Source: Prochlorococcus sp. AG-355-I04
GTDB lineage: Bacteria; Cyanobacteriota; Cyanobacteriia; PCC-6307; Cyanobiaceae
Reading direction: 5' to 3'
NCBI GenBank assembly: GCA_003280915.1
Contig: QCDL01000008.1
Location: 1 to 53,130, forward strand
DNA length: 53,130 nt
Position 1 is the stretch's first letter. Each line of letters starts with the position of its first letter. Shown here one piece after another: positions 46,948 to 47,386 of this stretch. The notes beneath the pieces are model-generated. The model saw only the letters and a program-made list of their open reading frames with translations, did not search any database and was not told the DNA's origin. A program made the position numbers and the translations under genes.

Positions 46948-47020
46948 AATGATCCATATAAAGATCTTTTATTTAGTCATTTAGCCTGAAACTTAATTCA
47001 CTATAAAGGGAGTTCAAAAA

Positions 47021-47386
47021 ATTCATTTATTTTTTATTACCTCAATACTTTTATTAGCTTTAAATAATGGCTATGTTTGTGGGAATTCAAAGCTTAATCT
47101 TGTCATGAGAAATAATATTAATGGTGACTTTTCCATAGTAGAAAAGATTTCTGAATTAAAGCCAGGAGCATTTGTAAATATTTATTGGAATAAAAAAAAG
47201 CTAATGCTTCCATACTCTTTAAGAAAAGATTATATTTCCTTTACAGATAAAAAATGGGACTGGAGGTATCAATTTAATAAGGAAGGATCGCCTGATATTA
47301 ATAATCCTTCTTTATACGAACTACTTCCTTCTGGAGAAGTTAAAGCACATTTTTGTCAATCAGAAGATAAAAGTCCTAACTTATAA
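47021..47386 (+). CDS. Predicted secreted protein with ATT start (121 aa)
   Basis: Not recognised. An ATG at 47105 would give 93 aa without a leader. But the frame is open upstream to a stop near 46994, and that part encodes a textbook signal peptide (HLFFITSILLLALNNGYVCGN). No ATG, GTG or TTG occurs there. The Shine-Dalgarno AAAGGGAG (47005-47012) ends eight bases before an ATT (47021), the ideal spacing. I therefore place the start at that ATT. The mature part (KPGAFVNIYWNKKKLMLPYSL, KKWDWRYQFNKEGSP) is a small beta-rich domain with one Cys near the end. Confidence 0.6.
   Translation: MHLFFITSILLLALNNGYVCGNSKLNLVMRNNINGDFSIVEKISELKPGAFVNIYWNKKKLMLPYSLRKDYISFTDKKWDWRYQFNKEGSPDINNPSLYELLPSGEVKAHFCQSEDKSPNL

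Follow-up and report, generated by a model that had tools for sequence, protein, structure and literature searches.

A small Prochlorococcus gene whose product is probably an exported protein very likely starts translation at an ATT codon. In the window (the whole stretch of 53,130 nucleotides that was analysed), this codon lies at position 47021. We are highly confident in a joint reading in which translation would begin at this ATT, the codon would descend from an ancestral ATG that changed once, a Shine-Dalgarno (SD) sequence would compensate for the change, and output would be low and capped. The features of the locus are:

46994..46996, + strand: in-frame stop TAA, the upstream boundary of the frame
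47005..47012, + strand: Shine-Dalgarno tract AAAGGGAG (most relatives have AAGGAG), placed by the position of GGA in the genus and by the 16S anti-SD
47021..47023, + strand: putative ATT initiation codon, read as fMet, from comparison within the genus and with other genera
47021..47080, + strand: N-terminal hydrophobic segment resembling a signal peptide and ending at Cys20, delimited by eye and homologous to a segment that starts with ATG elsewhere
47021..47386, + strand: complete coding sequence (121 codons and the stop), with a predicted beta barrel resembling MliC/PliC
47105..47107, + strand: internal ATG, the start given by a search for ATG, GTG or TTG (93 aa); 60 of 187 genomes lack an ATG at this place

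The open frame that contains the ATG at 47105 begins after the TAA at 46994-46996, and no ATG, GTG or TTG occurs in it upstream of 47105. Reading of this frame confirmed the original prediction that a segment resembling a signal peptide is encoded there without any of these codons, and the coordinates bear out that the purine tract AAAGGGAG (47005-47012) ends 8 bases before the in-frame ATT at 47021-47023. The sole further ATN codon between the stop and the ATT is an ATA at 47003-47005, which overlaps the beginning of the purine tract and lacks an upstream SD. A start further upstream, joined to this frame by a frameshift in an A-run, was rejected since the nearest ATG found by eye (46949) meets a stop at 46982-46984 before the SD. 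The gene is flanked by one for a beta-lactamase-superfamily protein upstream and by aminopeptidase N (pepN) downstream. A gene search limited to ATG, GTG and TTG would return a fragment of 93 residues, and the probable export of the protein would stay hidden.

The gene is present in 188 of 266 Prochlorococcus genomes, counted as one locus per genome, and the start can be read in 187 of them, one locus (L134) being truncated by a contig end. An alignment of homologues, which the original prediction had left to decide between ATT and another codon, came out for ATT, which stands at the start place in 181 of the 187 genomes, with ATC in 2, GTT in 3, an out-of-frame ATT in 1 and ATG in none. A codon other than ATG, GTG or TTG is therefore conserved at this place across species, and because the same ATT is common to 181 genomes, an assembly error is excluded. 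These 181 consist of 180 ungapped genomes and one (L311) with a whole extra codon in the signal region. Two isolates of the genus, MIT 9401 (L070) and MIT 9314 (L075), are among the carriers of the ATT. The two genomes with ATC are L301 and L224, the latter with ATA and ATC side by side. All three with GTT (L133, L322 and L326) have a TTG two codons downstream, and their present start may be either GTT or TTG, a possible move to TTG. In L115 the ATT is present and falls out of frame with the remainder owing to the length of a T-run. A smaller set restricted to the closest relatives gave ATT in 111 of 111 (114 loci, 3 of them unrelated; duplicates included). An in-frame ATG, GTG or TTG precedes the start place in 6 of the 187 genomes (L017, L136, L137, L212, L236 and L315).

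The gene is absent from the other 78 of the 266 genomes. A search with the first 170 residues of pepN, run without a positive control, found no match in 9 of these 78 (G067, G096, G114, G113, G149, G246, G125, G105 and G169, each at least 93% complete), so the whole segment seems to be missing there, rather than the start changed.

Within the 182 ungapped genomes, where ATT is found in 180 and ATC in 2, the start is the sole degenerate column from -28 to +77 in which at least 98% of the genomes share one codon. At other isoleucine columns, ATT shares the place with ATA and ATC (column 25, for example, has ATT 148, ATA 27 and ATC 6). A tree of 185 genomes, built from the downstream domain, gave 2 third-base changes in the start column; for 100 other degenerate columns the median was 13 and the minimum 2. 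Downstream of the ATT the frame is intact in every genome but L115 (186 of 187), whereas the spacing to the SD drifts. Estimates of pN/pS were 0.45 for the signal region, 0.20 for the core domain and 0.91 upstream of the ATT, all of them rough and the upstream value especially so, since indels in that part are unaligned.

In orthologues outside the genus, the same segment begins with a canonical start. A sample of 400 genomes of the family contained the protein in 156, of which 97 were from other genera, and we compared 60 of these 97, picked by score and for spread across genera. All 60 have a canonical codon there (ATG in 57, TTG in 3), which lies 20 to 45 codons before the core and exactly 30 or 31 codons before it in 53 of them. 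Judged by eye, their N-termini resemble that of the window protein read from the ATT, with few charged residues followed by a hydrophobic stretch. The simplest history would be a single change of the ancestral ATG to ATT before the radiation of the genus, and the relatives that start with ATG provide a natural control for the ATT-started genes of Prochlorococcus.

Conventional annotation would instead place the start at the ATG at 47105, or at an adjacent GTG or ATG, giving a 93-residue cytosolic protein with an untranslated leader upstream. This is the first ATG, GTG or TTG of the frame in the window, and 127 of 187 genomes have ATG at the place, but the other 60 lack it. In 151 of 186 genomes no canonical codon occurs in the frame before codon -2, where the signal segment ends, and 23 of 186 have none before codon +18, within the domain. 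In 5 of 187 genomes the frame reads TAA AAA ATT, that is, a stop, one codon and the ATT, so only AAA or ATT could start translation before the signal segment. The 28 codons upstream of 47105 are also conserved in frame with a reduced pN/pS, they correspond to the segment headed by ATG or TTG in all 60 orthologues compared from other genera, and the SD stands before the ATT. We therefore reject a start at 47105 and consider it very improbable.

The strength of the SD was taken as the longest unbroken match to TAAGGAGGTGAT. By this measure 157 of 187 Prochlorococcus genomes have a match of at least 6 bases before the start place and 168 have one of at least 5. Among 141 unambiguous ATG genes of at least 200 residues within 438 kb of the present genome, matches of at least 6 bases occur in 3 and of at least 5 in 6, in agreement with the original prediction that a strong SD is unusual here. 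The orthologues from other genera have a match of at least 6 bases in 1 of 60. Given this excess relative to both the ATG genes and the ATG-started orthologues, the strong SD goes with the ATT. The distance from the end of the GGA to the start is 7 to 11 bases in 175 of the 187 genomes. The anti-SD sequence GGCTGGATCACCTCC was found in 4 of 4 genomes tried, with its core CCTCC at a 16S-like site; longer patterns had no match.

A strong SD is thus conserved together with the start in most of the genus, with exceptions that include the window. The SD had been described as ideal, and in the window this did not hold, as its longest match to TAAGGAGGTGAT is just 4 bases (AAGG) because one extra G interrupts the tract. 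In a subgroup of 8 genomes (L137-L144) the ATT is kept and the SD is weak, with only GG or GGA by eye; judged from this subgroup, a strong SD is not universal in the genus. The same subgroup stands at 50-56% protein identity, has a TGG a few codons before the ATT in each member and, in several, a long open upstream frame. A further genome (L315, G261:C26:2200-3500) reads AAAATGAG at the place of the SD and has an in-frame ATG four codons upstream of the start place; none of the other 187 genomes with a readable start has an ATG in frame anywhere before that place. This genome appears to have escaped naturally to a canonical start, through a change that also removed the SD. Overall, the use of ATT as the start is backed by the alignment, the ATG or TTG of other genera, the invariance of the codon, the strong SD and the missing canonical codons in many genomes.

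A conserved ATT might still be a neutral relic, in which the ATG was lost, the SD arose by chance and the AT-rich genome makes reversion to ATG slow. Such a reversion requires a T to G change, and we examined 10 fourfold degenerate control columns with a majority of T. Nine of them show at least one change to G, with 37 gains in total, against 0 at the start place. This is suggestive of selection against ATG there and not proof of it, since T to G is likewise absent from 1 of the 10 controls, so that the lack of ATG taken by itself would also suit a relic. A relic would not account for ATT almost never becoming ATA or ATC, nor for the excess of SD matches before it, and we regard it as unlikely.

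Capped, SD-dependent initiation at AUU is the mechanism we consider most likely. The SD would pair with the 16S anti-SD and so place the initiator tRNA (fMet) on the AUU despite the mismatch, and the full-length protein with its export signal would be produced at a low, capped rate. IF3 would be expected to discriminate against initiation at AUU, and output may track IF3 activity. AUU and SD would then be retained by selection as a pair.

AUU starts are IF3-sensitive in E. coli, and control of the ATT gene by IF3 discrimination is plausible. Starts of infC with AUU, AUC or AUA have been reported for E. coli, Streptomyces and Staphylococcus. In Prochlorococcus, infC was found in 25 of 31 genomes sampled, and in all 23 where the start can be read (two are cut) the start is an ATG that immediately follows a TGA, with no strong SD evident (L333-L349, L351-L356). 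The classical AUU-infC loop is therefore absent from these genomes, while IF3 itself is present. The ATT gene is not infC and matches no family, and with infC starting at ATG we rejected IF3 autoregulation as an explanation of the ATT.

AUU and its compensating SD could act as a constant low-output setting, with variation in IF3 too slight to regulate. This is the default part of our best explanation, and we lean slightly towards it. It explains the data as well as control by IF3 does, it fits with the ATG start of infC in the genus, and it resembles the AUU of cvfC1 in Staphylococcus aureus, which gives about 10% of AUG output without an effect of medium (PMC13009471). On its own, a constant setting leaves the near-absence of AUA and AUC at the start place unexplained. 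Regulation proper, with output tracking IF3 activity or growth state in the manner of infC and Streptomyces sigR, is a possibility to which we give less weight. In its favour, sigR, described as IF3-repressed (PMC5472188), has the same anatomy, pairing a strong ribosome-binding site (RBS) with a non-canonical start that is conserved; a constant setting explains the data equally well. More doubtful is the idea that the AUU and SD form a dedicated translational switch outside infC, responding to IF3 or to how stable the initiation complex is. Were this true, the exported protein would be made only under permissive initiation, in a genus where the SD is rarely strong.

Read from the ATT, the protein of 121 residues has a hydrophobic N-terminus, Cys20, a conserved domain and Cys112. 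Both cysteines are invariant in 40 aligned sequences and could form a disulfide. AlphaFold2, run with the window protein and 39 close relatives, predicted a beta barrel with a mean pLDDT of 83.7 (57-67 for the other four models). The first six rows returned by VIA-align for this model are chains of PliC, PhiA and MliC, with Z from 10.3 to 8.2; the alignment with 4mir_C has Z 10.3, rmsd 2.2 and 81 aligned. PliC is a periplasmic and MliC a membrane-bound lysozyme inhibitor. Foldseek gave no match at E of 0.001 or below, its best being an unrelated anti-sigma factor at 0.042, with the PliC chain 4mir_C at 0.049.

Searches by sequence gave no family for this protein. The window protein matched no Pfam family at E up to 0.1 and no NCBIfam family, six orthologues matched no Pfam family at E up to 10, and a sequence search of solved structures returned no match. 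The Pfam profile PF09864 (MliC) matched nothing in the genome itself, this gene included; as a control, it matched in 3 of 14 genomes. We take the predicted MliC/PliC-like fold, despite the lack of a matching sequence family, as a lead on the fold and not on the function.

Folding of the 121-nt start region was no better than that of shuffled sequences (z 0.80), and a promoter scan gave 2 sites against 3.9 expected. A match to the Rfam family STnc410, an enterobacterial RNA, lay on the opposite strand with E 0.0027 and 25.4 bits against a gathering score of 50, and was taken as chance. A crude screen for an SD followed by ATT, ATC, ATA or CTG, over the 438 kb made up of the window and a further 385 kb (about 28% of the genome), gave 6 sites from 1,109 open frames, the ATT gene among them. 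The two best-scoring sites are neighbouring codons of a single frame, which faces a frame of 427 codons on the complementary strand, and the remaining three had low scores.

In E. coli, infC has an AUU start and is autoregulated; the gene described here shares the AUU and is a different gene, in a genus whose infC starts with ATG. One paper describes infC and pcnB as the two AUU genes of E. coli (PMC9410913). Expression of pcnB is described as limited by its AUU start, the feature common to the two genes, although pcnB encodes poly(A) polymerase. The product may share a small exported beta barrel with MliC and PliC, but it gave no match to the Pfam MliC sequence family.

It is extremely rare for an AUG start to turn into AUU: Belinky et al. 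give one such case among 61,358 ancestral AUG starts, and also report that stronger SDs accompany GUG and UUG starts (PMC5622118). The AUU described here is kept in nearly all genomes of the genus that carry the gene, mostly with a compensating SD. We found no cyanobacterial case of a conserved AUU start, and no report on this gene, in the open-licence literature; a paper on start sites in Synechocystis mentions AUU merely in general in its available text (PMC13339759). Compensation between start codon and SD, and discrimination by IF3 outside infC, become directly testable with this gene.

Streptomyces sigR, a gene under repression by IF3, has a strong RBS that is conserved, and its start is GTC in 32 of the 34 species compared and GTT in the other 2 (PMC5472188). 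The Prochlorococcus gene likewise has a non-canonical start that is conserved along with a strong RBS, and rare GTT variants occur in both; the codon here is ATT in place of GTC, and control by IF3 has been demonstrated for sigR. Similar in design are Staphylococcus cvfC1, with AUU, and ccpN, with AUA, in which an extended SD is conserved between species and output in poor medium is about 10% of that from AUG (PMC13009471). There, as here, a non-canonical start and a strong SD are both conserved between related species. The starts of cvfC1 and ccpN were shown by ribosome profiling and reporters, whereas ours comes from comparison of genomes; the host here is a cyanobacterium in which the SD reaches 6 bases in so few ATG genes, and the product is probably exported. 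A conserved AUU with a strong SD is thus already known from Staphylococcus, and the Prochlorococcus gene adds a well conserved example.
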